Part shown: positions 70-30,866 of the stretch, piece after piece
Layout: each line of letters begins with the position of its first letter
How positions within the stretch are numbered: the stretch's first letter is position 1
Assembly (NCBI GenBank): GCA_021324775.1
Contig: JAJPIM010000013.1
Location: 1-36,560 of the forward strand
Origin: Gemmatimonadota bacterium
GTDB taxonomy: Bacteria; Gemmatimonadota; Gemmatimonadetes; Gemmatimonadales; Gemmatimonadaceae
Direction: 5' to 3'
Length of the DNA stretch: 36,560 nucleotides
The notes under the pieces: model-generated
Told to the model about the DNA's origin: nothing
Database searches by the model: none
What the model saw: the letters and a program-made list of their open reading frames with translations, nothing else
Made by a program: the position numbers and the translations under genes

Positions 70-2931
70 ATGGGCGCGGCCAACATGATCTCGGAGCGGG
101 ACCGCGACGTCTTGCGATCTTTCGCGCGGCGGATCGATCCGGCGGACGCGGGCGCGCACAACAACCTCGGCGTACTCTATTTCCACAAGGGCCTGTTCGA
201 GGAGGCGGTCGCCGCCTTCACGCGCGCGCTCGAGCTCGACCAGAAGATGCTGGTCGCGCAGCGGAATCTCGAAGTCGCGTATTTCAGCTCCGGCTATTAT
301 GACCGCCGGGTGGGGGCCCTGCGCGAGCAGCTCCGCGCGGCGCCCGCCGATCGCGATGCGAGATGGGAGTTGGGCCGGGCGTTCGCGTTGCTGGGCCGTG
401 CGCCCGAAGCGGTGGCCGAGTTCACGGAGCTGCTGCGGTACCACCCGCAGGATCTGGGTGCGTTGGTGCAGCTGGGGCTCGCCGAGAAGGCGTCAGGCGA
501 TCTCGAGACGGCGCAGCGATGGTTCGAGCGGGCATTGGCGCTCGATCCCGACAGCCCGGTCATCCACTTCAACATCGCCGAGGTCCTGTACAACCGGGGA
601 TTGAACAGCGAGGCGCTCGCCGCGCTGCAGCGCGTAATCGCGCGGCGGCCGGACAATCCCGACGCCCACTACCTGATGGGCTTCGTGCTCGGCGACATGG
701 GGCGCCACGCCGAGGCCCAGGAAGCGGCGAAACGCGCGATTCAGCTCAACCCGACGCTCGGGCGCGCCCAGACCAATCTGTCGCTCGAAAAGCGATTGCT
801 GGCGAAGGCGGACGCCCCTCAATCCGTCTCCGATCGCCGTGCCATGGCCGCGATGGCGGTCTCCGACGGCGGCACCCTGGCGCACTTCAACCTGGGTCTC
901 GCGTTCCGGCAGAAGGCATACTACGCGGAGGCATTGCGGGAGTACCAGATCGCACTGGAACGTGGCGAGGAGCGCACGCTCGTGCAGCAGGCGATCGCAG
1001 AGCTGCAGCTCCTGCGCAAGGACGTCGCCGCGGGCGTCGCCGCCTACGATGGGCTGATTGCCGAGCGTCCGGACAGTCCGAAATTGTGGAACGAGCGCGG
1101 CGTCGCGCTTCACCAGGGGGGCCGTTACGAGCAGGCAGCCGAGAGCTACCGCCGGGCCATCCAGGCCGATCCGCGGTACGCGATCGCGCACAACAACCTC
1201 GGCGTCGCTCTCTTCCACGCCGGGGATTCAGCGGGCGCCGCGTCGGCATTCCGCACGGCCCTGGATCTGACGCCCGCGTTCTCGCACACACGCCTCAACC
1301 TCGCGCTGCTGCTCTTCAAGGCGAAGCGCCTGCAGCAGAGCGTCGAGGCGTACCGCCACGTGCTGCTCGATGAGCCGGAGCATGCGGTGGCGTGGAACGG
1401 GATCGGGCTCGTCCTGACGGAACTGCGGCGGTTTGCCGAGGCGCGCAATGCGTTTGCCCGCGCCGTGCAAAGCCGTCCCGACTGTGCGGAGGCCCACTAC
1501 AACCTGAGCTTCGCCCTCTCCAACCTCGGCGACTTCGACGCGGCACTCCGCGAGACCAAGCGCGCGCTGGAACTCGATCCGTACTACGTGCCGCAGAAGT
1601 TCGAGCTCGCGATCGACTTTCAGTACGAGCACCCGGATCTTTCGATCGGACCGGACCTGGGCGGGCCCGCGGACCAGCACCATCCGGTGGTCGCGGATTT
1701 CGCGTTCGACGGCAACGTACTGGACTCGCTGTTCGCTGAGCTCAGTCCCGCGGCGGTGCCGGATGCCGGCGGCGATGCGGCGGCAGATCCCTACGGGATG
1801 GCCCGCGACTACCTCTCGAAGGGTCTGTACGACCGCGCGGCGTCGGAAATCGGCCGGGCCTTGATGCGCGGGGCGCATCGGGCGGCCGGGATGGTCCTGA
1901 TGGGAGAGGTGTTCGCGCGGCAGGGTTACTACGGTGAAGCGCTCGAGCGGTTTCGCGATGCGCGGCGCGTCGACGGTGATGCGCGGGGTGCGGACGCCGG
2001 TGAGGTCCGCGCTCTCGTGGCGTTGCATCGGGCAGCGGAGGCGTGCCCGCTGGCCGAAACGCTGCTGGCAGCGACGCCTGACGATGTGGATGTCCTGCTC
2101 CTTGTCGCGGCGGCACGCGCCGGCGCCGGCCAGGTCGAGGGAGCGCTCGGCGCGCTGGAGCATGCGTGCGACGTCGCACCCCGCCGGGCGGACGTGCTCA
2201 AGATGATTGGAGACGTCACGCGGGACGCCGGACAACTGGAGCGGGCGCGGTCCGCGTACCGCGAAGCGCTCGACGTGGATCCGGATCGCGCCGTGGTGCG
2301 GTACGAGCTGGCGATGCTGCTCATCGGCGCGGGCGAACAGCGACTCGCGGAAGCCGAGCTCCGTGCGGCACTCGATCAGGTTCCGACGTACGCCGATGCC
2401 GCCCTGGCCCTTGCTGACCTCTGCCGCGCGATGGGCCGGGGCGCGGAGGCGCTGGGGTTGCTCGTGGATCTGCTCGAGCGGGATGCATCGCACACCACCG
2501 CCCTGCTCGCACTGGGCGAGTTGCTCTTCGAGAGCGGACGGCGCCGTGATGCCGCCCAAGCCTGGGCACGGCTGCTGGTGGTGGAGCCCGGGCATCCGGG
2601 AGCGCTCTACTATCAAGGCGCGATGCTCGCCGAGCGCAACCGGTATCGCGAGGCGATCGAGCGCTGGGATCAGGTGATTGCGACCGATCCGGACGGGGAG
2701 TTTGCCGCTCGCGCTCGGCGCGATCGCCGGACGGCAGCCGACCTCGCGCAGATCTTCGTTCGCCAGCCGGCCGGCGCCGCGCCGCGGGGGCGAACGTCCA
2801 TGCCGGTGACCGTCGCGCCGCCAGCGGCCGTGTCGGGCACCGGTGCGGGCGCGAGACCTGCGGGCCGGGTGTCGGGCGGTACGTCACGTACGAGCAAGCG
2901 AGTCGCCGCGGTTGCGGGCGGGGGGCGATAG
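70..2931 (+). CDS. Large tetratricopeptide-repeat (TPR) protein, 953 aa
   Basis: TPR proteins are alpha-helical scaffolds that hold other proteins together. Two long TPR blocks are visible, at about residues 25-510 and 575-885, with the typical spacing of Gly/Ala/Tyr and closing Pro (for example units with NNLGV, ALELDP, AHYNL). They are separated by a non-repeat Asp/Pro/Gly-rich linker at about 515-570. The last ~58 residues are Ala/Gly/Pro/Arg-rich, basic and probably disordered. No signal peptide or membrane helix is seen, so it should be cytoplasmic. The ATG at 70 is chosen because AGGAGAG at 58-64 sits 5 bases upstream; an alternative ATG is at 85. The stop directly abuts the next ATG, suggesting translational coupling. 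It opens the Roadblock/MglA/Che operon and is probably its scaffold; a specific partner cannot be named. Confidence 0.9.
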   Translation: MGAANMISERDRDVLRSFARRIDPADAGAHNNLGVLYFHKGLFEEAVAAFTRALELDQKMLVAQRNLEVAYFSSGYYDRRVGALREQLRAAPADRDARWELGRAFALLGRAPEAVAEFTELLRYHPQDLGALVQLGLAEKASGDLETAQRWFERALALDPDSPVIHFNIAEVLYNRGLNSEALAALQRVIARRPDNPDAHYLMGFVLGDMGRHAEAQEAAKRAIQLNPTLGRAQTNLSLEKRLLAKADAPQSVSDRRAMAAMAVSDGGTLAHFNLGLAFRQKAYYAEALREYQIALERGEERTLVQQAIAELQLLRKDVAAGVAAYDGLIAERPDSPKLWNERGVALHQGGRYEQAAESYRRAIQADPRYAIAHNNLGVALFHAGDSAGAASAFRTALDLTPAFSHTRLNLALLLFKAKRLQQSVEAYRHVLLDEPEHAVAWNGIGLVLTELRRFAEARNAFARAVQSRPDCAEAHYNLSFALSNLGDFDAALRETKRALELDPYYVPQKFELAIDFQYEHPDLSIGPDLGGPADQHHPVVADFAFDGNVLDSLFAELSPAAVPDAGGDAAADPYGMARDYLSKGLYDRAASEIGRALMRGAHRAAGMVLMGEVFARQGYYGEALERFRDARRVDGDARGADAGEVRALVALHRAAEACPLAETLLAATPDDVDVLLLVAAARAGAGQVEGALGALEHACDVAPRRADVLKMIGDVTRDAGQLERARSAYREALDVDPDRAVVRYELAMLLIGAGEQRLAEAELRAALDQVPTYADAALALADLCRAMGRGAEALGLLVDLLERDASHTTALLALGELLFESGRRRDAAQAWARLLVVEPGHPGALYYQGAMLAERNRYREAIERWDQVIATDPDGEFAARARRDRRTAADLAQIFVRQPAGAAPRGRTSMPVTVAPPAAVSGTGAGARPAGRVSGGTSRTSKRVAAVAGGGR

Positions 2932-4086
2932 ATGGCCATCGAAGGGTCGCTGCGCGAGCTGAGCATCCACGACGTCTTCCAGATGGTGGATCTGAGCCGG
3001 AAGACGGGGACACTGCGCATTACGTCCGAGTCGCGCGAGCACGAGGGAACCGTCGTATTCGAGCGCGGCCGCGTGCTGTCGGCGTCGATGCGGGGCAGTC
3101 CCGCTCCACTGGGGCAGCTCCTCGTGCGGGCCGGGCGCATCACGGAAGAGGATTTGGCCCGGGCTCGCGGCCTCCAGGCCGGCGGGGATACCCGTCGTCT
3201 TGGTGAGATCCTGCTAGCGCTCGGCGTGGTCGGGGCGCGTGAACTCGAACGGCAGGTCCGGCTCCAGGTCGAGACCGTCGTATTCGACCTCATGTCATGG
3301 CGCGATGGGTTCTTCTCATTTCAGGAGCGGGACATCGCCACGATGCCCATCGATGCGCCCGTCCACGTCTCGACCGAATCACTGCTCATGGAAGGGGCGC
3401 GGCGGTTCGATGAATGGTCACGGATCGTGGACAAGGTGCCGAGTCTTGCGGTCATCCCGGTGCTGGCGACGGTCACCGACGACCACGCGACCCGGCTCGA
3501 CCTGCTGCCGAGCGAATGGGAAGTCCTCGCGGCGATCGATGGTCTGACGGATCTTCGCGGGCTGGCAGCGACGCTGGGCCGGAGCGACTTCGAAGTCGCC
3601 AAAGTCATGTATGGTCTAGTGTCGACGGGAGTAGTGGAATTACGCGACCAGGGAACCGCGCGCGCCGGCGCGACGAGCGCAGGCGGAGCCGCCGATCCCA
3701 ACTGGGAGTTGGCGACTGCGCGCGAAGCGCTGGCCGCGGGCCGGCCCGACGAAGCGCTCGATGCGGCGCGGCGGGCAATCGGTGCGGCACCGGACGAGTC
3801 CGCGCCGCGGATCATGGCAGCGCAGGCGCTGCGCAGGTTGCGGCGGTACGGCGAAGCCGCAGACGAGTTGCGCCGCGCGGCGGAAGCCACACCTGGTCTG
3901 CCAGACGTCCATCTCGAGCTCGGATATGCGGCCGCGAGCCGCGGAGATTTCCGAGAGGCCGTCGCGAGCTGGCAGAAGTATCTGGAGCAATCTTCGGCGG
4001 GGGCACCTGGCGTCGCCGTCGTACGCGATGCGATCGCCTCGGCAACTGTATTGTGCACCGCGCTGGAGGCGCACTCGGGTGTCTGA
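2932..4086 (+). CDS. DUF4388 domain protein with C-terminal TPRs, 384 aa
   Basis: The N-terminus begins MAIEGSLRELSIHDVFQM and continues with KTGTLRI and VVFERGRVLSA. This pattern fits DUF4388 (PatA-like N-terminal domain), which is often found in multidomain signalling proteins of bacteria with elaborate chemosensory or motility systems. The DUF4388 and its helical extension span about residues 1-165. A middle domain with a probable winged-helix-like fold follows to about 235, and TPR repeats occupy about 245-375. There is no signal peptide or membrane segment. The ATG directly follows the preceding TAG. The protein is clearly related to the DUF4388-TPR protein at 7765-9396: both share the N-terminus, a GEILLALG/GDIIVSQ-type segment and an ESLLxEGAxRxDEWS motif. 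Its biochemical role is unknown; protein-protein interaction in the operon's signalling complex is an inference. Confidence 0.88.
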   Translation: MAIEGSLRELSIHDVFQMVDLSRKTGTLRITSESREHEGTVVFERGRVLSASMRGSPAPLGQLLVRAGRITEEDLARARGLQAGGDTRRLGEILLALGVVGARELERQVRLQVETVVFDLMSWRDGFFSFQERDIATMPIDAPVHVSTESLLMEGARRFDEWSRIVDKVPSLAVIPVLATVTDDHATRLDLLPSEWEVLAAIDGLTDLRGLAATLGRSDFEVAKVMYGLVSTGVVELRDQGTARAGATSAGGAADPNWELATAREALAAGRPDEALDAARRAIGAAPDESAPRIMAAQALRRLRRYGEAADELRRAAEATPGLPDVHLELGYAAASRGDFREAVASWQKYLEQSSAGAPGVAVVRDAIASATVLCTALEAHSGV

Positions 4087-5014
4087 TGAGATCAGGCGTT
4101 GGAGCGAAGAGTTGGCGCGAGATCCCGCGAGCATGGTGTTCGTGCCACTCGGTGACGCGTTGCGGCGTCGAGGGCAGCTCGAGCCGGCGCTCAAAGTCGC
4201 GACGCGCGGTCTGGAACGGCATCCGTACGACGCCGACGCGCACGACCTTCTGGCGCGCATCCACGCCGACCGGGGAGAATTGGAGCACGCGATGGACGAA
4301 TGGAGTGTCGCGCTGCGGGTCGCCCCGCACCATGCGGGCGCCCTCAAGGGCATGGGGTTCGCGTGCTTCCAGAGCGGCCGGGCGGCCGAAGCCGAGCGGT
4401 ATCTGGTCGCCGCCGTTGCCGCCGACCCCGGCGATCCAACGATCGACGCCGCATTGTCGCGACTGCGGGTCCCACAGGAAGACAACCGCTCCAGTCGCCC
4501 GGAACACGCCGCACCGATGATTGGACACGCCGGCGCCGTCGCACCTGCCGCGCAACCGGCCCTTGCGCCCGCACAGGATCCGGAGCTGGCGTTCGCGACT
4601 GCGACCAGCGCGTCGCTGGACGCGCGTGACCTCTTTGCGGACCTGCTGGGCGACGGCGAGCAGACGGCGCTCCTGCTCGACCCGCACGGCTACGTGCTGG
4701 CGGGCGCCTACGTGGTAGCCGATGGCCGCGATGTGGCGCAGGAGGTCGGTGGCGCGCTCAGTGGCGTCAGCGATGAGGCCCATCGGGCGATGCGGCACCT
4801 CGGGCTCGGCGAGTGGTCATCGATCGTGTTCGAGGCCGAAGTCGCGGCCATCGCGATGTCACCGGTCTCACAGGATGGTGAGATCGCGATCGCGCTAGTC
4901 GCAGCCGCGCGAACCGTGCCGCTGGGCCTGGTGCGCCGATTGCTGCGCCGGGTCAGCGAGCGCGGCGCCGCGTGGCTCGCGGGCAGTGCCGGCCAGACCG
5001 GGACGGGGCGCTGA
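4079..5014 (+). CDS. TPR-Roadblock/LC7 fusion protein, 311 aa
   Basis: The GTG at 4079 (protein begins VSDEIRRWSEEL) overlaps the previous gene by 8 bases. The frame is open further upstream, but that part lies over the DUF4388 gene. Residues 1-130 hold about three TPR units. A Pro/Ala-rich linker covers about 131-180, and a C-terminal Roadblock/LC7 domain about 185-305 (TALLLDPHGYVLAGAYV, then the long helix VAQEVGGALSGVSDEA). Roadblock domains dimerise and bind Ras-like GTPases; MglB, the activator of MglA, is the best-known bacterial example. With an MglA-type GTPase three genes downstream, this protein is a likely regulator or adaptor of it. A TPR fused to Roadblock could tether the GTPase to the TPR scaffold. 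The domain call is good; the specific role is inferred. Confidence 0.82.
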   Translation: MSDEIRRWSEELARDPASMVFVPLGDALRRRGQLEPALKVATRGLERHPYDADAHDLLARIHADRGELEHAMDEWSVALRVAPHHAGALKGMGFACFQSGRAAEAERYLVAAVAADPGDPTIDAALSRLRVPQEDNRSSRPEHAAPMIGHAGAVAPAAQPALAPAQDPELAFATATSASLDARDLFADLLGDGEQTALLLDPHGYVLAGAYVVADGRDVAQEVGGALSGVSDEAHRAMRHLGLGEWSSIVFEAEVAAIAMSPVSQDGEIAIALVAAARTVPLGLVRRLLRRVSERGAAWLAGSAGQTGTGR

Positions 5015-5358
5015 TGCCGGCGTTCGTGGAAATGCTCGACTCCTTCACGCGGCAACGGGGCGTGCAGGGCGGCCTTGTCGTGAGCGAACGGGACGGCATC
5101 GTCGTGGATACGCAGGTTCAGCTCGGCGTTCGCGCGAGCGTGGTCGCCGCATTGGCGGCATCGATCTACCGCAAGGCTCGTCTCTCGGCGGAGGCCGCGG
5201 GGTTGGGTCCGGTCGCGTACGTCGAGCTGGCCGCTGCAGAGGGGCGTCTCTGCATGGCGGGACGCGGCGATCTGGTCGTCGTGCTGATCACTGACGGCCG
5301 GTCGAGCGTAGGGCTGCTGCGGAGTGCGCTGCTGCAGGCGGCGGAGACGCTGGCATGA
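5014..5358 (+). CDS. Roadblock/LC7 domain protein, MglB-like, 114 aa
   Basis: The ATG at 5014 shares one base with the preceding stop (TGATG). The protein MPAFVEMLDSFTRQRGVQGGLVVSERDG is a single Roadblock/LC7 fold: N-terminal helix, GGLVVSERDGIVVDT hairpin, central helix VVAALAASIYRKARLSAEAAG and closing strands with VVVLITDG. Length and architecture match stand-alone MglB-type GTPase-activating subunits, which act as homodimers on MglA. It is the shortest and most canonical of the three consecutive Roadblock genes, so it is the best MglB candidate, but GAP activity is not demonstrated by sequence. The stop overlaps the next gene as ATGA. Confidence 0.85.
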   Translation: MPAFVEMLDSFTRQRGVQGGLVVSERDGIVVDTQVQLGVRASVVAALAASIYRKARLSAEAAGLGPVAYVELAAAEGRLCMAGRGDLVVVLITDGRSSVGLLRSALLQAAETLA

Positions 5359-5825
5359 CCGTCGCCGTCGTCGAACGGTGGGTGGAGACGCCGCTGCGAA
5401 GCTTCGTGCAGGATGCGCAGGTGACGCTCGCGCTCCTGCTGACCCCGAGCGGCCAAGTACTGGGCCAGCACGGATTCAATCGGGCGATGGACGTCATGGC
5501 GGCATGTGCATTGGCCGCGGCGATCCACGCGTCGTCCGCCGAGCTCGGCAAACTCCTCGAAGGCAAACCGTTCGCCGGCCTGCACCATGCGGGCGCCACA
5601 CGCCAGATCTTTCTCGCACCGGCGGAGACACGGCGCGGCACGCTGCTCTGTCTCACCGTGTTCGACGAGGCGACGTCGATCGGCATTGTCCAACTTTATT
5701 TCGACGAGCTGCGCGAGCGTCTCGCGGCCGGAGCGCCCGGAGCACGCACGCCACCCCAGGGCGTCCTGGCCGACACGTTCGAGCAGGACCTGAATCGCAA
5801 CCTCACGCTTCTCTTCCGCCGGTAG
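5355..5825 (+). CDS. Third Roadblock/LC7-like protein, 156 aa
   Basis: The ATG overlaps the previous stop by 4 bases (ATGA). The sequence LALLLTPSGQVLGQHGFNRAMD followed by a helix (CALAAAIHASSAELGKLL) and strands (TRQIFLAPAE, TLLCLTVFDEATSIGIVQLYF) fits a divergent Roadblock/LC7 fold with N- and C-terminal extensions. It lies 4 bases before the MglA-type GTPase start. A role in heterodimer formation with the other Roadblock proteins or in binding the GTPase is a reasonable inference. It is less typical than the 114-residue protein, so the family call is less certain. Confidence 0.78.
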   Translation: MTVAVVERWVETPLRSFVQDAQVTLALLLTPSGQVLGQHGFNRAMDVMAACALAAAIHASSAELGKLLEGKPFAGLHHAGATRQIFLAPAETRRGTLLCLTVFDEATSIGIVQLYFDELRERLAAGAPGARTPPQGVLADTFEQDLNRNLTLLFRR

Positions 5826-5829: not shown

Positions 5830-6528
5830 GTGTCGCTCGTCAACTACGCCACGCGCGAGATCACGTGCAAGATCGTCTACTACGGACCGGGCCGGTCCGG
5901 AAAGACGACGAATCTGCACTACATCTACGGCCAGGTTCCAAGCGACCGCAAAGGCCGCATGGTATCGCTCGCGACGCAGACCGACCGCACGCTGTTCTTC
6001 GATTTCCTGCCGCTGGATCTCGGTACGATCTCTGGCTTCACGACCAAGATGCAGCTCTACACGGTGCCGGGTCAGGTCTACTATCAGACGACTCGCAAAC
6101 TCGTACTTCAGGGCGCGGACGGCGTGGTATTCGTGGCCGACAGCCAAGCACGACAGCTCGAGGAGAACATCGAGAGTCTGCAGGACTTGCATGCCAACCT
6201 GGCCGAGCACGGAATCGACCCGCGGCTCGTGCCACTCGTGCTGCAATACAACAAGCAGAACCTGCCGCCGGAACTCATCCTCGATGTGCCGGCGATGGAT
6301 GAAGCGCTCAACTTCCGAGGCGTGCCCGCGTTCGCGGCCGACGCGCTTCGGGGGCCGGGAGTGTTCGAGACGCTACGCGGCATCTCGGAGCTGGTGCTCC
6401 GCCGGCTGAGCGGCTCCGCATCGGGCGCACCGCCATCCGGCCTGCGCGCAGGCGGCGCGGGTCCGGTCGCGCAGGCCCCGGTGCGGGCGCCGGCCAGCTC
6501 GGCAGGCACCACTTCCGGCCGCCGGTAA
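5830..6528 (+). CDS. mglA: MglA-type Ras-like small GTPase, 232 aa
   Basis: The GTG at 5830 gives VSLVNYATREITCKIVYYGP, which closely matches the start of Myxococcus MglA. The P-loop is G19-PGRSGK-T26. TDRTLFFDFLPL and the MglA-specific TVPGQVYY (G3 region) follow, then VVFVADSQ. MglA proteins are cytoplasmic switches controlling cell polarity, gliding and type IV pili, and are regulated by Roadblock MglB. The G4 motif here is N141-K-Q-N144, whereas the usual motif NKxD has Asp at the last position; that Asp contacts the guanine base. Residues ~195-232 form a Gly/Ala/Pro tail absent from the ~195-residue Myxococcus protein. It sits directly downstream of three Roadblock genes and 13 bases before the DnaA-like AAA+ gene, all in one operon. 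Confidence 0.93.
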   Translation: MSLVNYATREITCKIVYYGPGRSGKTTNLHYIYGQVPSDRKGRMVSLATQTDRTLFFDFLPLDLGTISGFTTKMQLYTVPGQVYYQTTRKLVLQGADGVVFVADSQARQLEENIESLQDLHANLAEHGIDPRLVPLVLQYNKQNLPPELILDVPAMDEALNFRGVPAFAADALRGPGVFETLRGISELVLRRLSGSASGAPPSGLRAGGAGPVAQAPVRAPASSAGTTSGRR

Positions 6529-6541: not shown

Positions 6542-7765
6542 GTGGAGCTCGACAGGCGACACCAATTCGGCGACATCGTCGTGGGACCGGCCAACCGTCT
6601 CGCGGTGGCCGCCGCATTGGCGGTCGCGGAAAATCCCGGCTCGACCTACAATCCGCTCTACATTTGGAGTGCCCCCGGGCTAGGCAAGTCGCAGCTGTTG
6701 GCCGCGATCGGACTTCGCGCGCTGGCGTTGCAACCGGCGCTGCGGGTCGCCGCACTCACCGTCGACGAGTTCGTACGCCAGCTCGAAGCGGCGGTATCGA
6801 TGGGGGACCAGGCCGCGTTTCACCGGCACTTTCAGGACGCCGACCTGCTGCTGATCGATGACGTGCAGTTCCTGGCCGGCCGCCACGAGGCGCAGGCCGA
6901 GCTGTTGCGCCTCTGCGAGGAGTTTCACGCGTCGGGCCGGCAGATCGCCTGCACGGGCGACCGGCCCCCGGGTGACATCGTGGATATCGATGCGCAGCTT
7001 GCGGACCAACTCTCGGGCGGGTTGGTGGTCGAAATCGGCCTCGGCCTCGGCGTCGGCCAGGGCGCCGGCCAGGCGCCCCGCGCGAGCGGTGCCGTGTCAT
7101 CCCCACCTGCGGCTGAGTTCCTGAATTTCATATCGGACGTCGCGACGGTCGTCGCCCGGCACGTCGAGCCGTGGCGCTCGAGCATCGGCGAGGCGGCCCA
7201 GCGGTGGGCGGCCGAGGGTTACGACACCGCGGTCCTCGAGCGAGCGATGCGTGCCGGCGCAGATCCCGGGAGCGGCGCCCTCATCGCGACGTATGAACGG
7301 TGCGTGGCCAGGCTCCGGACCCTTCAGTGCGAAGCCGCGGCCGCGGATCCCGATCTCGCGGCGATGGACATCTTCTTTGACCCGGCGCGCGTGGCCGAGG
7401 CTGAGGAGCTGGTGGCATCCGCGCAGGCGCCGGCCGATGCCGGCGGCGGGGCGGAGCCGGACGCCGCCATCTCGGATAGTCGCGACCATCATGCGGCCCA
7501 TTCGAACGGTGCGGGGGACGGGGGAGATTCGGCCGATGTCATCGACCTCGTGGACGTCGTGGACGAGGTGGATGCCGGCGGCGCCATCCCGACAGAGGCG
7601 GCTGAGCCGGAGGAGCCGCTTCCGGTCTCGGTGGTCGCGCGCCGGACATCGCGGGGCATGGTGGTTACCTCCATCGAGGCCGAAGATCCGTTTTTTCTCG
7701 ATGACGAGAAAGTGGTCTGGGACTGGCCCGATGCGCAGGGGCGGGTCATCGAGGAGTTCCGCTGA
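6542..7765 (+). CDS. DnaA-like AAA+ ATPase lacking the DNA-binding domain, 407 aa
   Basis: The GTG start gives an N-terminus that follows DnaA domain III: FGDIVVGPANRLAVAAA, then YNPLYIWSAPGLGKS (Walker A, residues 43-50), LLLIDDVQFLAGR (Walker B, 102-114) and a sensor-1-like TGDRPP at 138-143 (TSDRPP in DnaA). After that it departs from DnaA. The box VII arginine finger (SRF in DnaA) is not visible at LADQLSGGLVVEI, and there is no lid/sensor II or helix-turn-helix domain IV. A helical domain (about 190-290), an Asp-rich acidic stretch (about 300-350) and a conserved-looking tail ending DWPDAQGRVIEEFR follow. It is probably not a replication initiator. It may be an ATP-dependent partner or regulator of the MglA/Roadblock/DUF4388 proteins. 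Its stop overlaps the next gene by one base (TGATG). Confidence 0.85.
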   Translation: MELDRRHQFGDIVVGPANRLAVAAALAVAENPGSTYNPLYIWSAPGLGKSQLLAAIGLRALALQPALRVAALTVDEFVRQLEAAVSMGDQAAFHRHFQDADLLLIDDVQFLAGRHEAQAELLRLCEEFHASGRQIACTGDRPPGDIVDIDAQLADQLSGGLVVEIGLGLGVGQGAGQAPRASGAVSSPPAAEFLNFISDVATVVARHVEPWRSSIGEAAQRWAAEGYDTAVLERAMRAGADPGSGALIATYERCVARLRTLQCEAAAADPDLAAMDIFFDPARVAEAEELVASAQAPADAGGGAEPDAAISDSRDHHAAHSNGAGDGGDSADVIDLVDVVDEVDAGGAIPTEAAEPEEPLPVSVVARRTSRGMVVTSIEAEDPFFLDDEKVVWDWPDAQGRVIEEFR

Positions 7766-9396
7766 TGGCCATACGCGGGAGTCTCCGCGAGGCGAGCCTG
7801 CCCGACGTTCTGCAGCTACTGGCGATGGGCAAGAAGACCGGCTGCCTGAGCGTCACCCATCGCAACAACTTCGGCTACATCTATTTCGACCGCGGCCGGA
7901 TCGCCTATGCCTCCATCGTGAACCGGCGCGACCGGCTCGGCGACCTCCTCGTCAAGGCCGGGTTGCTCACGCGCCCGCAGCTCGACACGGCGATCAGCAT
8001 GCAAGCCGCCGACCCCAGCCGCCGCCTCGGCGACATCATTGTGAGCCAGCGGCTCGTGAGCCGCGAGGCCCTGCACGAGCAGGTGCGCACGCAAATCGAA
8101 GAGGCCGTCTACTACCTCTTCACGTGGTCACAGGGCACGTTCAATTTCGAGCCGGACATCCGCCCCGAGGAGCAAGACTATCTGGCCGCGATCAACCCCG
8201 AGTCCCTGCTGCTCGAGGGTGCGCATCGGGTCGACGAGTGGAGCCTGATCGAGCGCAAAGTGCCGAGCTTCGACGTCGTATTCGACGTCGATCGCGAGCA
8301 CGTGCAGCAGAGCGGCGTCACGTTCACGCCGATCCAGGACACCGTGCTGGCGCTTCTCGACGGCCGCCGGGATGTGCGGACCATCGTCGACGAGTCGGGG
8401 CTGGGTGAGTTCGAAGTCGGGAAAGCGCTGTACGGCCTGGCGTCGGCCAGCTTCGTGCACCGCGTGGGACGCACCAAGACGGCGGATCCCGCGGTGTCGG
8501 ATGCGCGCGTCGAGGAGCACCGCAACCTCGGAATCGCCTTCTACAAGACCGGCATGTTCGAGGAGGCGACCCGCGAGTTCCGGCGCGTGTCGGAGCTGCG
8601 GCCGGCGGATCACGGGGCGCCGTTCTATCTGGGACTGGTGCTGATCCGCCAGGGCAAGTGGCCGGCCGCCGTCGCCGCGTACGAAGAGGCGGCGGCGATG
8701 TCGGGCGCGCGGCCGGCCATCTTCCACAATCTCGCCTATGCGCTGGAGCGCCTCGGGCGCTACGACGAGGCGCAGGCCGCGCTGGAGCAGGCGACGACCC
8801 GCGGAGGGCGGGATGACGCGCGCGTGCGCATGTCGCTGGGTGTGCTGGCGCTCCGCCGTGGCGCGGTGGCCGATGCGGACGCCCTCCTCACCGCCGCACG
8901 GTCGCTCTGGGGCGTCCGGCCGCCAGCGCCGGCCTGGTTCCACTACGCCGGACTCGCCGCCGCGATGCGGGGAGAGCTCGATCGCGCGATCGCACTGCTC
9001 CGCGAAGGGGTCGGATATCATCCGCACGCCGCGCCGCTCTACAACAACCTCGCCACCATCCTGGAGCGCCGCGGCAGCTATGCCGACGCGGCGCTCGCGG
9101 CCGAGCGCGGCCTGCAGGAGGCGCCCGGCTTCGCGCAACTGCACAAGAACGCCGGTGACTACGCCTATCGCATCGCGCGGTACGACGATGCGTTCGACGC
9201 CTACCAGCGAGCCGCGCGCGCCAACCCGGAGCTGGGCGAAGATCTGTACTTCAAGATGGGCAACATCCAGTATCGGCGCGGCGACGCATCCGGCGCGATG
9301 CAAGCCTGGGAGCGGGCACTGGAACTCGACCCGGACAGTGCGATCATCCGGAGTAATCTCGAGACGGTGCGTCGCGCGACACGGGCTCGGGCGTGA
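7765..9396 (+). CDS. DUF4388 domain protein with long TPR tail, 543 aa
   Basis: The protein starts MAIRGSLREASLPDVLQL with KKTGCLSV and IYFDRGRIAYAS, a DUF4388 (PatA-like) N-terminus. The DUF4388 and helical extension cover about residues 1-165, including ESLLLEGAHRVDEWS. A possible small winged-helix-like region follows to ~240, then about eight TPR units from ~255 to 540. It is a paralogue of the 2932-4086 protein but has a longer TPR array. No secretion or membrane signals are seen. It lies between the DnaA-like ATPase and cheR, with 1-base and 4-base (GTGA) overlaps, so it physically links the GTPase half of the operon to the chemotaxis half. Its molecular function is unknown. Confidence 0.9.
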   Translation: MAIRGSLREASLPDVLQLLAMGKKTGCLSVTHRNNFGYIYFDRGRIAYASIVNRRDRLGDLLVKAGLLTRPQLDTAISMQAADPSRRLGDIIVSQRLVSREALHEQVRTQIEEAVYYLFTWSQGTFNFEPDIRPEEQDYLAAINPESLLLEGAHRVDEWSLIERKVPSFDVVFDVDREHVQQSGVTFTPIQDTVLALLDGRRDVRTIVDESGLGEFEVGKALYGLASASFVHRVGRTKTADPAVSDARVEEHRNLGIAFYKTGMFEEATREFRRVSELRPADHGAPFYLGLVLIRQGKWPAAVAAYEEAAAMSGARPAIFHNLAYALERLGRYDEAQAALEQATTRGGRDDARVRMSLGVLALRRGAVADADALLTAARSLWGVRPPAPAWFHYAGLAAAMRGELDRAIALLREGVGYHPHAAPLYNNLATILERRGSYADAALAAERGLQEAPGFAQLHKNAGDYAYRIARYDDAFDAYQRAARANPELGEDLYFKMGNIQYRRGDASGAMQAWERALELDPDSAIIRSNLETVRRATRARA

Positions 9397-10250
9397 GCGA
9401 TTCCGCGCAGGGCGCCACGCCCGGCCAGGCGGCCAAAGCGCCCGCCAGCGATGCGGCCGATTTCGCCGCGCTGCTGGCCAAGATCGCGCGCGAGCGGGAC
9501 TTCGTCTGCCACAGCTACAAGGAGAAATGCCTCCGCCGGCGGATTGCGGTCAGACTTCGGGCGAAGGGCATCGCGACGTACGCCGACTACGCGCGGCTGC
9601 TGGAGAGCGACCCTCGCGAGTACGACACGCTGCTCGACACGCTGACCATCAACGTCACGAAGTTCTTCCGGAACTGGGACGCGTTCTCGGCCCTGTCTCG
9701 CACCGTCGTGCCTTCGTTGTGGAAGCTTCCCACCGACGCGCTGCACATCTGGAGCGCCGGGTGCGCGTCCGGGGAAGAGCCGTACTCGCTCGCGGCACTG
9801 TTTCACGCTTACGCCGTGGAGCAGCACGACGTCGCTCGTGCCGACCGCATTCGGGTGCTCGGTACCGACATCGATCGCGAGAGTCTGTCAGCCGCGAATC
9901 GCGGCACGTATCCCGACGCCGCGTTCGCGGATACACCGAAGGGTCTTCGCGCGGAGTATTTCAGTAACGGCACGCCGTCCGAAGTCGACCGGCGGATCCG
10001 GGCACTCGTCCGGTTTGCCCGGCACGATCTGATTCGCGATCCGGCCCCCGGCGGCCAGCATTTGATCGCCTGCCGCAACGTCATCATCTACTTCGACCGC
10101 GCCGCGCAGGAAGCGTTGTTCGCCCGGTTCCACGCTGCGCTCGTGCCCGGCGGCTTTCTCGTGCTCGGGAAAGTCGAGACATTGCTCGGGCCGACCCGCA
10201 ACCTCTTCGCGCCGGTCGACGCGCGCGAGCGGATCTTCAGCCGTGTTTGA
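9393..10250 (+). CDS. cheR: CheR, chemoreceptor glutamate methyltransferase, 285 aa
   Basis: CheR transfers methyl groups from S-adenosylmethionine to receptor glutamates to set adaptation. The GTG start overlaps the previous stop (GTGA). An N-terminal helical domain (about 25-90, KEKCLRRRIAVRLRAKG and the NVTKFFRN motif) precedes the SAM-binding fold, with its glycine-rich loop at S121-AGCASGE-E129, LGTDIDRESL, and the family signature LIACRNVIIYFD followed by GFLVLGKVETLLGP. The length is normal for a stand-alone CheR. The CheD and CheB genes downstream complete the adaptation set, but no receptor gene is in the window, so its substrate must be encoded elsewhere. Confidence 0.96.
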   Translation: MSDSAQGATPGQAAKAPASDAADFAALLAKIARERDFVCHSYKEKCLRRRIAVRLRAKGIATYADYARLLESDPREYDTLLDTLTINVTKFFRNWDAFSALSRTVVPSLWKLPTDALHIWSAGCASGEEPYSLAALFHAYAVEQHDVARADRIRVLGTDIDRESLSAANRGTYPDAAFADTPKGLRAEYFSNGTPSEVDRRIRALVRFARHDLIRDPAPGGQHLIACRNVIIYFDRAAQEALFARFHAALVPGGFLVLGKVETLLGPTRNLFAPVDARERIFSRV

Positions 10251-10298
10251 TCCGGCCACGGCCACCCGGGGGCGCGGGGCGCGCGCCGGGATCGCGCG

Positions 10299-10781
10299 AT
10301 GATCGAGCAGATCCGCGTCAACGTCGCGGCGTACGCGGTCGCCCGCGGCGATGCCGTCATCTCGACCCTCGGGCTGGGATCCTGCGTGGCGATCGCGGTG
10401 CACGATCTGGCGACGGCGGTCGGGGGCCTCGCGCACGTGCTGTTGCCGAGTGAGAGCATGTCGCGCGACCGCGACAACCGCGCGAAGTTTCCGGGCACCG
10501 CGGTCCCGCTCCTGCTGGAGGAGATGCGGAAACTCGGCGCGACCGGGCCATTCACGGCCAAGCTGGCCGGCGGGGCGAGCATGTTCGGTGCGCTGCTACC
10601 GTCCGGCGGCGTCAACATGGGCGAGCGAAACGTCGAGGCGGTGCGGCGGGCCCTTGGCGTGGCCGGCATCGGGATCGCGGCGCAGGACACGGGCGGTGAC
10701 TACGGCCGCAGCGTCTTCCTGCACGTGCGCGATGGGCGCCTCGTGGTGCGATCGCTGAACCGGGGAGAGCATGTCCTCTAG
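10299..10781 (+). CDS. cheD: CheD, chemoreceptor glutamine deamidase, 160 aa
   Basis: CheD deamidates glutamines of chemoreceptors and in some bacteria partners CheC. Family motifs are present in order: STLGLGSCVAIA with the catalytic Cys, AHVLLP with the catalytic His, AKLAGGASMFG, NMGERN and DTGGDYGRS. The length is standard. The start lies 48 bases after cheR, the largest internal gap of the operon, and I see no promoter there. The end overlaps cheB by 11 bases. No cheC is in the window. Confidence 0.95.
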   Translation: MIEQIRVNVAAYAVARGDAVISTLGLGSCVAIAVHDLATAVGGLAHVLLPSESMSRDRDNRAKFPGTAVPLLLEEMRKLGATGPFTAKLAGGASMFGALLPSGGVNMGERNVEAVRRALGVAGIGIAAQDTGGDYGRSVFLHVRDGRLVVRSLNRGEHVL

Positions 10782-11910
10782 CCCGACGCCGGTCGCGCCG
10801 CTGCCGGCGGTGTCGCCGAGGCAGCGCGTGCGCACCGTCCTGGTCGTCGATGACAGCGCGTTCATGCGGCGCGTCATCAGCGACGTCGTGGCAACGGCAT
10901 CCCAGGAGTTCCGGGTCGTCGGTACCGCCCGAGACGGCCTCGACGCGCTCCGGCAGATCCACGCCCTCGAACCCGACATCGTGACGCTCGACATCGAGAT
11001 GCCGGAGCTCGATGGGCTGCAGACGCTGGGCTACATCATGGCGGAGACTCCCCGGCCGGTCGTGATGCTGAGCGCCGCGGGCGCGCCGGGCAGCGCCGAT
11101 CTGACGATCCGCGCGCTGGAGCTCGGGGCGGTGGACTTCGTGCGCAAGCCGATGGGGCCGCTCAGCCTCGATCTGTCGTCGGTTCGCGAACAGCTGGTCG
11201 GAGCACTGCGCGCGGCATCGTGCGTCAACCTGCAGGGCGTCAGCGTGCTTGCGCGGCCGCCGGTGGGGACGCTGACGGGCGAGCCGCTCGTCGCAGATAC
11301 GGCGGCGTGGGTGGTGGTCATCGCCGCATCGACGGGAGGGCCGCGGGCATTGTCCGAGATCGTACCGGCACTGCCCGCGGATCTCGGAGCCGCCGTCCTG
11401 ATTGTGCAGCACATGCCGGGCGGCTTCACCAAAAGCCTGGCGCAGCGGCTCGATGCCCTGAGCACGTTGCGGGTGTGCGAGGCCGAATCAGGGATGCCGA
11501 TCCAGCACAACCGCGTATACATCGCCCGCGGGGGGTTCCACATGCGGGTGGCGCGGGGCGCCGCCGGGCCGACCCTCGCGCTCGACGCGGGCCCGGCGAT
11601 CTGGGGGGTCCGGCCGGCCGCTGACCCGCTCTTTCGCTCTGCCGCGCAAGCCTTTGGGTCCCGCGTGGTCGGCGCGGTGCTGACGGGTATGGGGCGAGAC
11701 GGCGCCGAAGGGCTGCGTGCGGTGCGAGACGCCGGTGGGCAGGCCGTCGTCCAAGATCAGATGACCTCGATCATATACGGCATGCCGCAGGCTGCACTGG
11801 CCACGGCAGGGGCAGATCGGGTGGCCGCGTTACCGGACGTAGCAGTCGCGCTGCGTGAGCTGCTGGAATCCGGGCGCGCGTATCACGCGCTGCGGGGCGC
11901 GCGGACGTGA
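10771..11910 (+). CDS. cheB: CheB, receiver-linked protein-glutamate methylesterase, 379 aa
   Basis: CheB removes receptor methyl groups (and can deamidate) once phosphorylated by CheA. An N-terminal response-regulator domain shows the acidic pair D27-D28, phospho-acceptor D74 in TLDIEMPELDG, and a KP motif near residue 129. A linker of about 50 residues leads to the catalytic domain, with the triad S187 (IAASTGGP), H214 (VQHMPGGF) and D310 (GMGRDGAEG). The enzyme looks intact. It overlaps cheD upstream by 11 bases and cheW downstream as GTGA. A kinase to phosphorylate it is not encoded here. Confidence 0.96.
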   Translation: MSSSPTPVAPLPAVSPRQRVRTVLVVDDSAFMRRVISDVVATASQEFRVVGTARDGLDALRQIHALEPDIVTLDIEMPELDGLQTLGYIMAETPRPVVMLSAAGAPGSADLTIRALELGAVDFVRKPMGPLSLDLSSVREQLVGALRAASCVNLQGVSVLARPPVGTLTGEPLVADTAAWVVVIAASTGGPRALSEIVPALPADLGAAVLIVQHMPGGFTKSLAQRLDALSTLRVCEAESGMPIQHNRVYIARGGFHMRVARGAAGPTLALDAGPAIWGVRPAADPLFRSAAQAFGSRVVGAVLTGMGRDGAEGLRAVRDAGGQAVVQDQMTSIIYGMPQAALATAGADRVAALPDVAVALRELLESGRAYHALRGART

Positions 11911-12503
11911 CGGCCGCGGCGACGGGACGGCTCCCGCAGGGGTTCGTCCAGGACGCGCCCGCCGATGAGGGGCTCGGCCAGGCGAGGCCGGTCGATGAGG
12001 GTTTCATCGGTTGGGGTCCTGGAAAGGCCATCTCGGCCGACACGACCAATGAACTCCTCGTTTTTCGGGTGGGCACCGAGCGGTTCGCGATGAGCGTCGA
12101 AGCGGTCGAGGGAATCAGCGTCATGCCACCGATCACGCCCCTGCCAGCGATGGCGCGCGACCAACTCGGCGTCTGTGATCTGCGCGGATCCCTGATCCCC
12201 GTCTATTCGCCTGCCGCGGCACTCAACGTCCGGCTGGCCGAGCCGGCCGTCGCGATCATCGCGTGGGTCGGACGGACGCTGAAGGCGTCAGGCCGGCGCG
12301 TCGTGATCGCTGTCGACGAGGCGTCTGGCGTGACGGCGATCGACGAACGCGGTTGGGGCGATATCGGTGGCACTCCGTGCACGGAGGGATTTGTTCGCGG
12401 CGTATCGGCATCGGGCACCGAGCTGACGACGTTGCTGCACGCGGGCGAGTTCCTGGCGGCGTGCACCGCGAACGCCGACCCCCAGCGCGAGGAGACGCGA
12501 TGA
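11907..12503 (+). CDS. cheW: CheW-like adaptor protein 1, 198 aa
   Basis: CheW couples chemoreceptors to CheA through two SH3-like subdomains. The GTG start overlaps the cheB stop (GTGA). After a ~45-residue variable N-terminus, the CheW core begins LLVFRVGTERFAMSVEAVEGI and contains VCDLRGSLIPVYSP and VVIAVDEASGVTAI, ending in a typical TELTTLLHAGEFL strand. Its stop overlaps the second CheW gene by ATGA. The role in array assembly comes from family knowledge; the cognate kinase and receptor are outside the window. Confidence 0.9.
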   Translation: MTAAATGRLPQGFVQDAPADEGLGQARPVDEGFIGWGPGKAISADTTNELLVFRVGTERFAMSVEAVEGISVMPPITPLPAMARDQLGVCDLRGSLIPVYSPAAALNVRLAEPAVAIIAWVGRTLKASGRRVVIAVDEASGVTAIDERGWGDIGGTPCTEGFVRGVSASGTELTTLLHAGEFLAACTANADPQREETR

Positions 12504-13264
12504 CCCGGCGCGGTGGCGCAGGAGCGGTCACGCGACGCGGGGCCGCCGGAAAGGAGAAGACGCGCACTGGGCGTTCAGGCGCCGCGGCGGCGCCGGCAAC
12601 CGCCGGGGGAGTTCCGGCCGGCGGAGCGCCCGCCGGTGGAGTGCCAATTGGGGGAGTGCCGGTCGCCGCGACGCCAGTCGCCGCCACGCCGGCTATCGCC
12701 ACGCCGGCTATCGCCACGCCGGCTATCGCCGCGCCGGCTCGCGCCGATGTGCGAGGGACGGTTGCCCAGATCGTAACGTTCCGCATCGAGCAGGATCTCT
12801 TTGCCGCTGATGTCCGCGCGGTCGAGCGGGTGCTGCGGCCCACGGCCATCACGCCTGTGCGCAACATGCCGCCGTGGATCAGCGGCGTGCTCGAATACCA
12901 GAAGCGCGTCGTGCCGGTGATCGACTTCCGGGCCCGGTTCGAGCTGCCGGCGGCGGCACCGACCAACGAGACTCGCGTGCTGGTCTTCAACGTGGCCGGG
13001 AGCTGGGTCGCGGCGGTGGTCGACGCCGTACTCGATGTCAGCGTGCTCGAGCCCGGGCGTCTCGATCCGCCACCGCCGCTGCTTCGCGGGCTCGCAGCCG
13101 GCTACCTGAGGGGCATCGTGCGACGCGATGGCAAACTGGTCATGCTCCTCGATGCGGACCGGATTCTTTCGGCGACCGAGCGGCTGGCCCTCGGTGAATT
13201 GGCCGGGTCATCGGCGTCGATCGCGACGTCAGCGACGACGGCTCCCGTGACGGTCCATGGGTGA
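12500..13264 (+). CDS. CheW-like adaptor protein 2 with Ala/Pro/Gly-rich N-terminal linker, 254 aa
   Basis: The ATG at 12500 overlaps the preceding stop (ATGA). Residues 1-85 are low-complexity, rich in Ala, Gly, Pro, Thr and basic residues, including tandem ATPAI-type units encoded by a 15-bp DNA repeat. The CheW domain follows: IVTFRIEQDLFAADVRAVERVL, MPPWISGVLEYQKRVVPVIDF, VVDAVLDVSVLEP and DGKLVMLLDADRIL. Two different CheW proteins next to each other suggest paralogous adaptors for different receptors or kinases, or one working as a scaffold. The long flexible N-terminus is unusual for CheW. The stop overlaps the next start by 8 bases. Confidence 0.9.
   Translation: MTRRGGAGAVTRRGAAGKEKTRTGRSGAAAAPATAGGVPAGGAPAGGVPIGGVPVAATPVAATPAIATPAIATPAIAAPARADVRGTVAQIVTFRIEQDLFAADVRAVERVLRPTAITPVRNMPPWISGVLEYQKRVVPVIDFRARFELPAAAPTNETRVLVFNVAGSWVAAVVDAVLDVSVLEPGRLDPPPPLLRGLAAGYLRGIVRRDGKLVMLLDADRILSATERLALGELAGSSASIATSATTAPVTVHG
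12683..12742 (+). repeat. 15-bp in-frame tandem repeat in the second cheW
   Basis: Three identical 15-bp units (12683-12697, 12698-12712, 12713-12727) and a fourth degenerate copy (12728-12742) encode ATPAI-like pentapeptides in the N-terminal linker. Because 15 is a multiple of three, copy-number change would alter linker length without a frameshift. Confidence 0.85.
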
Positions 13265-14147
13265 GATGGCCGTGCTGAGTGCCAGCCGTGTGACCGATCT
13301 CCGTCGCCAGTGCGCCGACATCGCGGGCAGGCTCGACGGGCGCGAAGGGATCGGAGAAGGACCTCGGGCGCAGCTCAAGGCCGAGATCATCGCGTTATAC
13401 CGGTCGGTGGACCACGAGATTGGCGAGCTGGCCGCGCTCAAAGAGGAAGTCCGGCGGCTGGTCGACAAATGGAAGACGGCACAGCGCAGCGATGTCGCGA
13501 CGACTGCGCCCCAGTTCAGCGGAGAGCGGCCGCTCGTTCACGCCGATCATCTGGGCGCGTCGACATTCGTGGAAAAAGGGTGGAGCCGGATTTCGCTGGG
13601 CGACTACGAGGGTGCGGAAGCGGCGCTCACCAGGGCCCTCCAACTCGCGCCCAACGATCCGCAGTCCGAGTCGCTGCTGGGGTGGGCGCAGATGCTGCAG
13701 GAGAAGTACGACGACGCGCTGCTCAACTTCCAGCACGTGCTGATGCGGCAGCCGGCGAACGCGCTGGCGCGGATCAACGTCGGGTACATCTGCCTCAAGA
13801 AGCGCATCTTCGGGGAAGCCATCGAGCATCTCTCGAAGGCGATCCGCCTCGACAACGACAAGAAGGCGACGCTCTACGCGCACTTCTACCTCGGACTGGT
13901 CTATCTGGAGCGCGAGATGTACGAAGATGCGGAGACCTTCTTCCAGAAGACCCTGGTCCTGGGCCCCAACCTGATCGAGGCGTCCTACGAGCTCGGCCGG
14001 GCGCGGTGGTTCGGGGGCAACCGGGACGGCGCGATCGATGCGTGGCGCGCGGGACATGCCGCCAACAAGTTCAATCCATGGGGCAAGCGTTGCGCGGAGG
14101 TACTCGAGACGGTTGCCACTGGAGGAGAGCCGCCCCGGGCGGCCTGA
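13257..14147 (+). CDS. TPR protein with N-terminal helical/coiled-coil segment, 296 aa
   Basis: The ATG at 13257 overlaps the cheW stop; an alternative ATG at 13266 has GGGTGAG immediately before it, so the exact start is uncertain. Residues ~5-75 are charged and helical (for example ELAALKEEVRRLVDKW), consistent with a short coiled coil. TPR units fill about 100-285 (GWSRISLGDYEGAEAALTRAL, YLGLVYLEREMYEDAETFF, YELGRARWFGGNRDGAIDAW). No signal peptide is present. It probably serves as an interaction scaffold for the chemosensory proteins encoded just upstream; its partner is not identifiable. Confidence 0.88.
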   Translation: MGEMAVLSASRVTDLRRQCADIAGRLDGREGIGEGPRAQLKAEIIALYRSVDHEIGELAALKEEVRRLVDKWKTAQRSDVATTAPQFSGERPLVHADHLGASTFVEKGWSRISLGDYEGAEAALTRALQLAPNDPQSESLLGWAQMLQEKYDDALLNFQHVLMRQPANALARINVGYICLKKRIFGEAIEHLSKAIRLDNDKKATLYAHFYLGLVYLEREMYEDAETFFQKTLVLGPNLIEASYELGRARWFGGNRDGAIDAWRAGHAANKFNPWGKRCAEVLETVATGGEPPRAA

Positions 14148-15211
14148 CCCGGCCAGCGTGGTGGCATGCCCGGCGGCTCCGGGGGGTCTGCCTCGCCATC
14201 CTCGTCGCGATTGCGATACCAGGATCGGCCCCTGGCCAGGCGGCCGGGAATACCAGAGGGCATCCGGCGGGAGACTTCACGGACGATACCGCGATGCGTT
14301 TCGACGCAGGGCGATTCTCCGTCTTCGCGGGACGAGCCGACGAGCGGCTCGCGCGGTCTCTGCTGGATCTGGCGGTTCGCCACGACACGTTTCCCGGACT
14401 CCCCCGACCGCATTCGCACGTCGTCATCATCGTTGCGCCCGACGCGGCGCATTTCCGCACGTGGGTTGGCGGAACGGTGCCGGAGTGGGGTGCGGCAGTC
14501 GCGATCCCGCAGTCGCAACGCATCATCGTGCAGGGCAGGGCCGCAACATCGGCGGCGGGCGACCCCGAATCGACCCTGCGCCACGAACTCGCGCATCTCG
14601 CGCTCCACGAGTATCTCGACGAGCTCCCGCCGCGCTGGTTCGACGAGGGTTACGCGAGCTACGCCGCCGGAGAGAGCGGCCGCGACGAGGCACTGGCAAC
14701 CAACATCGCGCTGGCACTCCACGGCGCGCCGACGCTGGCGTCGCTGGACAGCGGGCTGGTGGGAGGCGAGGGAGAGGCGACGGCCAGCTATGCGCTGGCC
14801 CACCGGGCGGTCGCCGATCTCGCGGCCCTCGACAGCGTCCGCGGATTGTCGTTGCTGCTGCAATACTGGAGGGAGACGGGCTCGCTCGATCAGGCGGTTC
14901 GCCGGGCATATGGGGAACCGCTCGATGTTTTCGAGGCGCGATGGCGGTCACAGACCCGGCGCCGCTATGGGGCGCTCGCCATCGCGTCCGACCTCGCGTT
15001 CTCGATGCTGGTGTTTCTGACGCTCCTCGCACCACTCTACGTCGCGCGCCGGCGGCGTGATCGCGCCCGGCTGGCCGTGTTACGATCGGCCGAACGAGCG
15101 GCTGATGCCGCCGCCACCGCCGCGGTGGCGGCGGCGCTATCGGCGGGAGCGGAGCCGGCACGCTCGCACGCGACCGACGCCGCGCCTCCCGCCAGCGGCC
15201 CACTCGCTTGA
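14144..15211 (+). CDS. Membrane-anchored HExxH metallopeptidase (peptidase MA-like), about 355 aa
   Basis: The frame contains H147-ELA-H151 and FDEGYASY with E168, a gluzincin-type zinc site like that of the peptidase MA-like family. A hydrophobic N-terminal segment (LRGVCLAILVAIAIPGSAPGQA) looks like a signal peptide, and one transmembrane helix near residues 280-303 (SDLAFSMLVFLTLLAPLYVA) is followed by a basic stretch and an Ala-rich tail. The catalytic domain should therefore be outside the cytoplasmic membrane. No ATG, GTG or TTG lies in frame between the end of the TPR gene and the signal peptide. I placed the start at CTG 14144, which would overlap the TPR stop as CTGA, like the ATGA/GTGA junctions upstream. 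It is the last gene of the operon; its substrate is unknown. Confidence 0.75.
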   Translation: MTRPAWWHARRLRGVCLAILVAIAIPGSAPGQAAGNTRGHPAGDFTDDTAMRFDAGRFSVFAGRADERLARSLLDLAVRHDTFPGLPRPHSHVVIIVAPDAAHFRTWVGGTVPEWGAAVAIPQSQRIIVQGRAATSAAGDPESTLRHELAHLALHEYLDELPPRWFDEGYASYAAGESGRDEALATNIALALHGAPTLASLDSGLVGGEGEATASYALAHRAVADLAALDSVRGLSLLLQYWRETGSLDQAVRRAYGEPLDVFEARWRSQTRRRYGALAIASDLAFSMLVFLTLLAPLYVARRRRDRARLAVLRSAERAADAAATAAVAAALSAGAEPARSHATDAAPPASGPLA

Positions 15212-18440: not shown

Positions 18441-18790
18441 AGAGGCGCACCGAGAAGAGGCACTCCGAGCCCGCCCGGCGGTGGCGGGGCCGCTCGATCG
18501 TCGCGGCTGGGCTCGTCGGGTTCGTGATGGTCGCCGCCGTCGTCATCTGGCGCCGCGGATACGGCGTGACGCAGGGCGTGGAGTTGCGCACCCTCGACCG
18601 CCAGCGGATGCAGCTCGAGGCGCAGAAGGCGGCGCTGGAGCGCGTCGTGCGCGATGAAGCCGGGCGTGGGCGTCTGGGGCCGGTCGCGGAGAGCCGGCTC
18701 GACATGCACGTGCCTCCCGACAGCGAAGTCATCGTCCTTCCCGCACCACCGGCGCCGGGCGGCGCCCCGCGCGATCGTGCTGCGCCGTAG
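18437..18790 (+). CDS. ftsL: FtsL-like divisome protein, 117 aa
   Basis: FtsL is a small bitopic protein that joins FtsB and FtsQ in activating FtsW/FtsI. From ATG 18437 (overlapping rsmH as ATGA) there is a strongly basic cytoplasmic N-terminus (1-19), one transmembrane helix at about 20-37 (IVAAGLVGFVMVAAVVIW), and a predicted coiled coil (VELRTLDRQRMQLEAQKAALERVV). The tail is Pro/Ala-rich. FtsL is poorly conserved, so the call rests on topology, size and position between rsmH and ftsI. GTG 18422 is an alternative start. Confidence 0.8.
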   Translation: MKRRTEKRHSEPARRWRGRSIVAAGLVGFVMVAAVVIWRRGYGVTQGVELRTLDRQRMQLEAQKAALERVVRDEAGRGRLGPVAESRLDMHVPPDSEVIVLPAPPAPGGAPRDRAAP

Positions 18791-26293: not shown

Positions 26294-26339
26294 TGCAGCC
26301 GTCAACAAGCGGGTCACGAAACTGGATACGAAGCTGGTC

Positions 26340-27557: not shown

Positions 27558-27570
27558 GGCGCCGGCGGCC

Positions 27571-28689: not shown

Positions 28690-28697
28690 TTTCACTC

Positions 28698-28726
28698 TTG
28701 AGAGGTGGGTGAGGCCGGTCTATATT
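28698..28726 (+). promoter_or_regulatory. Strong sigma70-like promoter for murC-ftsQ-ftsA
   Basis: TTGAGA (28698-28703, 5 of 6) and TATATT (28721-28726, 4 of 6 including TAT and the final T) are exactly 17 bases apart. Transcription would start near 28733, leaving only about 7 bases before ATG 28740, and no Shine-Dalgarno is visible. The mRNA would be nearly leaderless. Confidence 0.65.
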
Positions 28727-28739
28727 CTTCGCGCCGCAC

Positions 28740-30861: not shown

Positions 30862-30866
30862 CGCCT

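Follow-up and report, generated by a model that had tools for sequence, protein, structure and literature searches.

A tandem-DnaA protein family in Gemmatimonadota and its reduced member in a signalling gene cluster

The locus and its DnaA-like gene

The stretch of Gemmatimonadota DNA analysed here (the window; 36,560 nucleotides of contig JAJPIM010000013.1) carries a signalling operon whose genes all lie on the + strand. A 953-aa TPR-rich protein (70..2931), recognised from its translation and syntenic homologues, is followed by a DUF4388-TPR protein, a (2932..4086; PF14332, 8.6e-31), DUF4388 being the PATAN domain. Next come a Roadblock/LC7 protein (4972..5358; PF03259, 1.9e-06), an MglB-like Roadblock/LC7 protein (5355..5825; PF03259, and NF052242 MglB at 5.4e-05, below its cut-off) and an MglA-type Ras-like GTPase (5830..6528; E 2e-71 to MglA of M. 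xanthus in the PDB). The DnaA-like protein (DnaAL), the subject of this study, is encoded at 6542..7765 by an open reading frame of 407 aa with a GTG start. Downstream lie DUF4388b (7765..9396; PF14332, 3.5e-38), which combines a PATAN domain with TPRs, and cheR, cheD, cheB, cheW and a second cheW (9393..13264; Pfam CheR 1.3e-46, CheD 1.8e-25, CheB 6.9e-62, CheW 2.4e-18 and 6.5e-33). In DUF4388b, a helical insert of the DUF4388 domain (7933-8094) scores better than the cut-off against the MshE-type c-di-GMP motif (NF053729, 44 bits, cut-off 38). The last conserved neighbour is a Peptidase_MA-like protein (14144..15211; PF13485), which is present in an mglA-less lineage too. A division and cell wall cluster (mraW, ftsI, murE ... 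ftsA) occupies 17433-36560, downstream of the signalling operon.

The preliminary description had reported DnaA-like Walker A, Walker B and sensor 1 motifs in the DnaAL gene, and all three were found. A Pfam profile search matched the full Bac_DnaA profile PF00308 to aa 3-164 (6548..7033; 146 bits, E 1.5e-42), far above chance level, with GLGKS (K49) as Walker A, LLLIDD (D106/D107) as Walker B and TGDRPP as sensor 1. This AAA+ core corresponds to module 1 of the family described below. Resemblance to DnaA ends at aa 165, the best stretch in the NCBIfam DnaA profile being 2-165, and both box VII arginines of DnaA (the R of ERL and the R of SRL/SRF) are replaced by Q152 and Q156. Behind the core, a Gly/Ala-rich linker (7037..7105; pLDDT <50), delimited by alignment with the sister genome G104 and locus L046, occupies the site of the AAA+ lid and sensor II of the tandem relatives and of G104. 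It leads into a family-specific helical middle domain (aa 190-296; 7109..7429), which was defined by family alignment and modelled with pLDDT mostly >90. The remainder consists of an acidic disordered linker (7430..7684; pLDDT about 25-50), which stands where the tandem relatives have module 2, and a C-terminal tail, DPFFLDDEKVVWDWPDAQGRVIEEFR (7685..7762), conserved in 66 tandem relatives.

The AlphaFold model of DnaAL contained a RecA-like core at 1-165, a confident helical domain at 190-296 and disorder from 300, with no lid. The core superposed on domain III of DnaA structures in the PDB with an rmsd of 0.9-1.1 over 164-166 columns. The gene had been read as a DnaA paralogue without a DNA-binding domain, and no hidden HTH appeared in the models of either the window protein or a tandem relative. 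A profile search of the genome with PF08299 (DnaA HTH) gave no match at the window locus; its sole match was the true DnaA, a 492-aa frame on another contig (C37). The middle domain had no Pfam match, and sequence comparison with the PDB returned only chance-level matches for it. Defence-system models did not match the window and gave only weak matches, mostly around the P-loop, for one tandem member. The tail sequence occurs once in the window genome, which ruled it out as a shared address tag.

A family built from two DnaA-type modules

Relatives of DnaAL were gathered from a search of 298 Gemmatimonadota genomes, together with named relatives, and translated; motifs were counted in 66 non-identical tandem proteins. 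The usual relative is about 640 aa long and carries two complete DnaA-type AAA+ modules with lids, a helical domain of about 105 aa between them and a shared C-terminal tail with the consensus EKxVWDWPD-x4-R-x-IEE. Walker A and Walker B were near-invariant in both modules, the Walker A Lys being present in 65/66 proteins for module 1 and 66/66 for module 2. Box VII Arg was found in 62/66 and 65/66 proteins, respectively, and sensor II Arg in 63/66 for either module, while sensor 1 was retained in module 1 and often gone from module 2. The tail residues were conserved as well (W 64/66, W 65/66, R 64/66 and E 65/66). In the AlphaFold model of a tandem protein (pLDDT 84.5), module 1 fitted domain III of B. 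subtilis DnaA with a TM of 0.89. The window copy shares with these relatives the module 1 core, the middle domain, the C-terminal tail and the position between mglA or rluD and DUF4388b, but it and two sister genomes have one AAA+ module each instead of two.

The family was found in most sampled Gemmatimonadota. A cross-phylum search with a four-sequence middle-domain subset yielded 76 loci, nearly all labelled Gemmatimonadota or unclassified, with one exception; it used two peptide patterns that distant forms would escape, so absence from other phyla is unproven. A 3-kb contig labelled Planctomycetota (L037) carries a typical Gemmatimonadota DnaAL and is probably misbinned. A literature search, mostly without subscription journals, found no description of such a tandem-DnaA protein, and the family is previously undescribed.

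Module 1 and module 2 formed separate clades in the tree (support 0.965 and 0.998), both apart from Gemmatimonadota DnaA, E. coli DnaA and Hda, and were joined to each other at 0.79; this is most simply explained by one ancient duplication behind the two modules. Taken together, sequence, tree and models showed that the family arose by fusion of the duplicated ATPase domain of an ancestral DnaA, with loss of its N-terminal domain and HTH. A normal HTH-bearing DnaA was also present in 33/33 tested genomes that carry DnaAL, which is thus not their sole DnaA, and its status as a DnaA paralogue and not the replication initiator is supported. The AAA+ core of DnaAL is about 37% identical to DnaA of its own genome and has the same Walker A and B, and tandem members also share box VII Arg, sensor II and the lid with DnaA domain III. 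Unlike DnaA, however, the usual form has two modules per chain, lacks domain I and the HTH domain IV, and has the extra middle domain and the conserved tail.

The window copy scored below the cut-offs of both the curated DnaA profile TIGR00362 (153.1 bits, cut-off 343.9) and the curated Hda profile TIGR03420 (44.5 bits, cut-off 194.8). Hda, too, is a DnaA-type AAA+ protein that lacks an HTH and acts through docking, but it is a single module with a lid, and it grouped apart from the DnaAL modules in the tree. DnaC/DnaI/IstB-type ATPases belong to the same wider AAA+ clade and are partner-loaded, yet matches to them were weaker (IstB 23.7 bits, below its cut-off of 24.1), and no helicase or transposase partner gene was found near the window DnaAL. 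Thus, what had been observed at 6542-7765 was confirmed and its reading as a non-replicative DnaA paralogue stands, whereas the comparison with Hda does not hold by descent. The missing box VII Arg, sensor II and domain IV are likewise real in the window copy (Q152/Q156, with lid and HTH absent), but a missing arginine finger is no family trait, as the tandem relatives keep box VII Arg and sensor II in both modules, and the window state reflects a late reduction.

Reduced forms, selection and the DUF4388b partner

All three genomes of the window genus have a single module, encoded in a protein of 407 aa in the window, a 398-aa frame in G107 and 494 aa in G104; the lid is absent in the window copy and G107 and present in G104. 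The reduced window copy is unlikely to be an assembly error, since its state recurs in related genomes. By comparison with the family, its missing arginine finger and lid are a derived state and not the family state, and synteny, the tail and the middle domain led us to regard the single module of the genus as a derived loss. Reduction in other lineages is independent of that in the window genus. One module with lid remains in G223; AAA, lid and tail without the middle domain in G056; AAA, lid, middle domain and tail, with module 2 lost, in G079; and middle domain and tail without an AAA core in G158 and G244. In family f5, module 2 has no P-loop. A version of the tail was retained in G056, G079, G158 and G244 despite these losses, and the tail is the most persistent part of DnaAL, though altered in some reduced lineages.

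Comparison of the window copy with G104 gave a dN/dS of about 0.06 for the tail, 0.22 for the core and 0.25 for the middle domain, against 0.72 for the acidic linker, so purifying selection acts on core, middle domain and tail and not on the acidic linker. The preliminary description had pointed to an acidic tail with a conserved-looking end. The end bears this out, its last ~20 residues being conserved (dN 0.05, dS 0.84 against the sister genome), but conservation is lowest in the acidic stretch. The losses of lid, box VII Arg and module 2, and the existence of several lineages that lost more of DnaAL or all of it, could be taken to mean that the window gene is a decaying remnant without function; given the selection data, and with the open frame kept in three genomes of the genus, we consider this highly improbable.

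Gene order in named relatives was cheY-cheA-cheC, the TPR protein, DUF4388a, Roadblock proteins, mglA, DnaAL, DUF4388b, cheR, cheD, cheB and cheW, with cheY, cheA and cheC identified by eye from sequence. The whole signalling cluster of the relatives is bounded by rluD and by mraW, a gene of the division cluster; as divIVA-ileS-rluD lies upstream of the operon, the chemosensory and polarity genes are inside a division gene neighbourhood. Where the locus left room to tell, mglA was directly upstream of DnaAL in 64/64 cases and DUF4388b directly downstream in 70/70. Family f5 has rluD, then DnaAL, DUF4388b and the peptidase gene, with no mglA or che genes there, which makes DnaAL and DUF4388b the constant pair; the link to the GTPase is probably secondary. 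A use outside replication had been proposed from the MglA and Roadblock context. The signalling and polarity cluster of the main lineages and the separate DnaA genes agree with such a use, but the constant partner is DUF4388b and not the GTPase.

The embedding of DnaAL between mglA and cheR-cheD-cheB-cheW, with cheY-cheA-cheC upstream, would also suit a protein that positions or assembles the chemosensory array or polarity proteins and does not act on pili, like the ParC/PpfA-type ATPases, which occur in other che operons. This seems unlikely to us, because the DnaAL-DUF4388b pair of f5 adjoins neither che genes nor mglA, and some operons keep mglA and cheB/cheR without DnaAL.

DUF4388b measured 537-543 aa wherever DnaAL or a DnaAL remnant existed and the contig was long enough. 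In nine DnaAL-less genomes of three genera it was 430-438 aa long and lacked exactly the last TPR; these genomes form one clade (support 0.999), so the joint disappearance of DnaAL and this TPR was one event. In families f5 and f7, the sampled genomes without DnaAL had no DUF4388b at the threshold used. An apparent exception, G294, with no DnaAL and the last TPR present, is explained by a deletion or misassembly that fuses the end of cheA to mid-DUF4388b and removes mglA and DnaAL (L182, on G294:C54). In G046 and G094 (L128 and L129), operons with mglA and a short DUF4388b differ upstream in encoding another, long protein of about 1090 aa, and they include a 401-aa protein of no recognised type. 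The DnaAL tail is predicted to bind the last TPR of DUF4388b (aa about 485-530; 9217..9354 in the window), because the two genes are constantly linked, the tail persists, the last TPR and DnaAL were lost jointly, and TPRs often bind C-terminal peptides. DUF4388b itself may, judging by its MshE-type motif, be a c-di-GMP sensor.

A probable role outside replication

We infer, with about even confidence, that DnaAL is an ATP-controlled regulator outside replication, docked through its tail on the PATAN-TPR protein and probably tuning type IV pilus motility. The usual two-module form, with an ATP site, arginine finger and sensor II in each module, would probably stack and switch with ATP like DnaA. 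Its tail would dock on the last TPR of the adjacent PATAN-MshEN-TPR protein, and through this partner, together with MglA, Roadblock and chemosensory proteins, DnaAL would regulate or scaffold pilus-based surface motility, or polarity, in an ATP-dependent manner. In the window genus, where one ATP-binding core is left with the middle domain and tail (and no lid in the window copy), the window protein would probably bind ATP as a switch or adaptor but not hydrolyse it cooperatively.

The suggested pilus output builds on the PATAN domain, as domains of this type contact the type IV pilus extension motor in other bacteria; an interaction of the PATAN regulator PixE with PilB1 has been reported from cyanobacteria (PMC7690835). 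MglA of Myxococcus acts on PilB by way of the TPR protein SgmX, together with SopA (PMC11580455). The MglA/MglB-SgmX-SopA polarity and type IV pilus module of M. xanthus likewise unites an MglA GTPase, Roadblock proteins, a TPR-rich protein and chemosensory genes in one system, and the MglA GTPase and Roadblock proteins are present in the window. PATAN-TPR proteins and DnaAL are added here, however, and no DnaA-type ATPase was found described in the M. xanthus system. Control of type IV pili or polarity would be the likeliest output of the cluster. Type IV pilus ATPases of the PilT family were found in 60/61 genomes, whether these carry DnaAL or not, so pili do not tell the two groups apart and were rejected as a correlate of DnaAL; the pilus or polarity output is thus one that we infer. 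PilT-family copy number was higher with DnaAL, but this is confounded by ancestry.

Besides the single event behind the joint loss of DnaAL and the last TPR, and the presence of pili regardless of DnaAL, points against a regulator of this kind are the cell division and wall genes nearby and the K-E-R-T loop of DnaA, which is retained in module 2 of 60-62 of the 66 tandem proteins and may point to ssDNA binding and a DNA-related role. The loop is as in the A. aeolicus DnaA chain solved with ssDNA, where it contacts the ssDNA. Together with the DnaA ancestry seen in the tree and the position of the locus beside dcw and divIVA-ileS-rluD genes, this could mean that DnaAL still acts on DNA or DnaA, binding ssDNA or joining DnaA filaments and so linking signalling to the start of replication or to the cell cycle, as Hda does by a different route. 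Module 1, however, has lost the pattern, with Glu at the Arg position in 63/66 proteins. Furthermore, DnaAL lacks an HTH and is linked to no replication gene, and the tail stays where module 2 (the window genus, G079, G056 and G223) or the AAA core (G158 and G244) is gone. An action on DNA or DnaA is therefore improbable in our judgement.

Carrying the regulator reading further, we tentatively propose that the duplicated head-to-tail DnaA ATPase may be an ATP-driven assembly factor, docked by a C-terminal peptide on a PATAN-TPR receptor and setting pilus or polarity activity, that is, a DnaA filament module working as a cell-polarity machine and not on DNA. DnaA is generally seen as a replication protein, and few of its offshoots are known from outside DNA metabolism; in the tandem-DnaA family this motor seems to have found a second use in signalling. 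The two fused and apparently active DnaA motors of such a phylum-wide family, placed among motility and polarity genes, would show that DnaA-type AAA+ assembly can be re-used in this way. The tail and the last TPR of DUF4388b make a predicted docking pair that is directly testable, and the stepwise reductions of DnaAL offer a natural series revealing which parts are needed.

Of note, a second HTH-bearing DnaA was found besides the normal one in G107, a sister genome of the window genus; it is a 379-aa frame (G107:C31:16556-17497; L118 / L115) adjoined by an apparent Ku gene.
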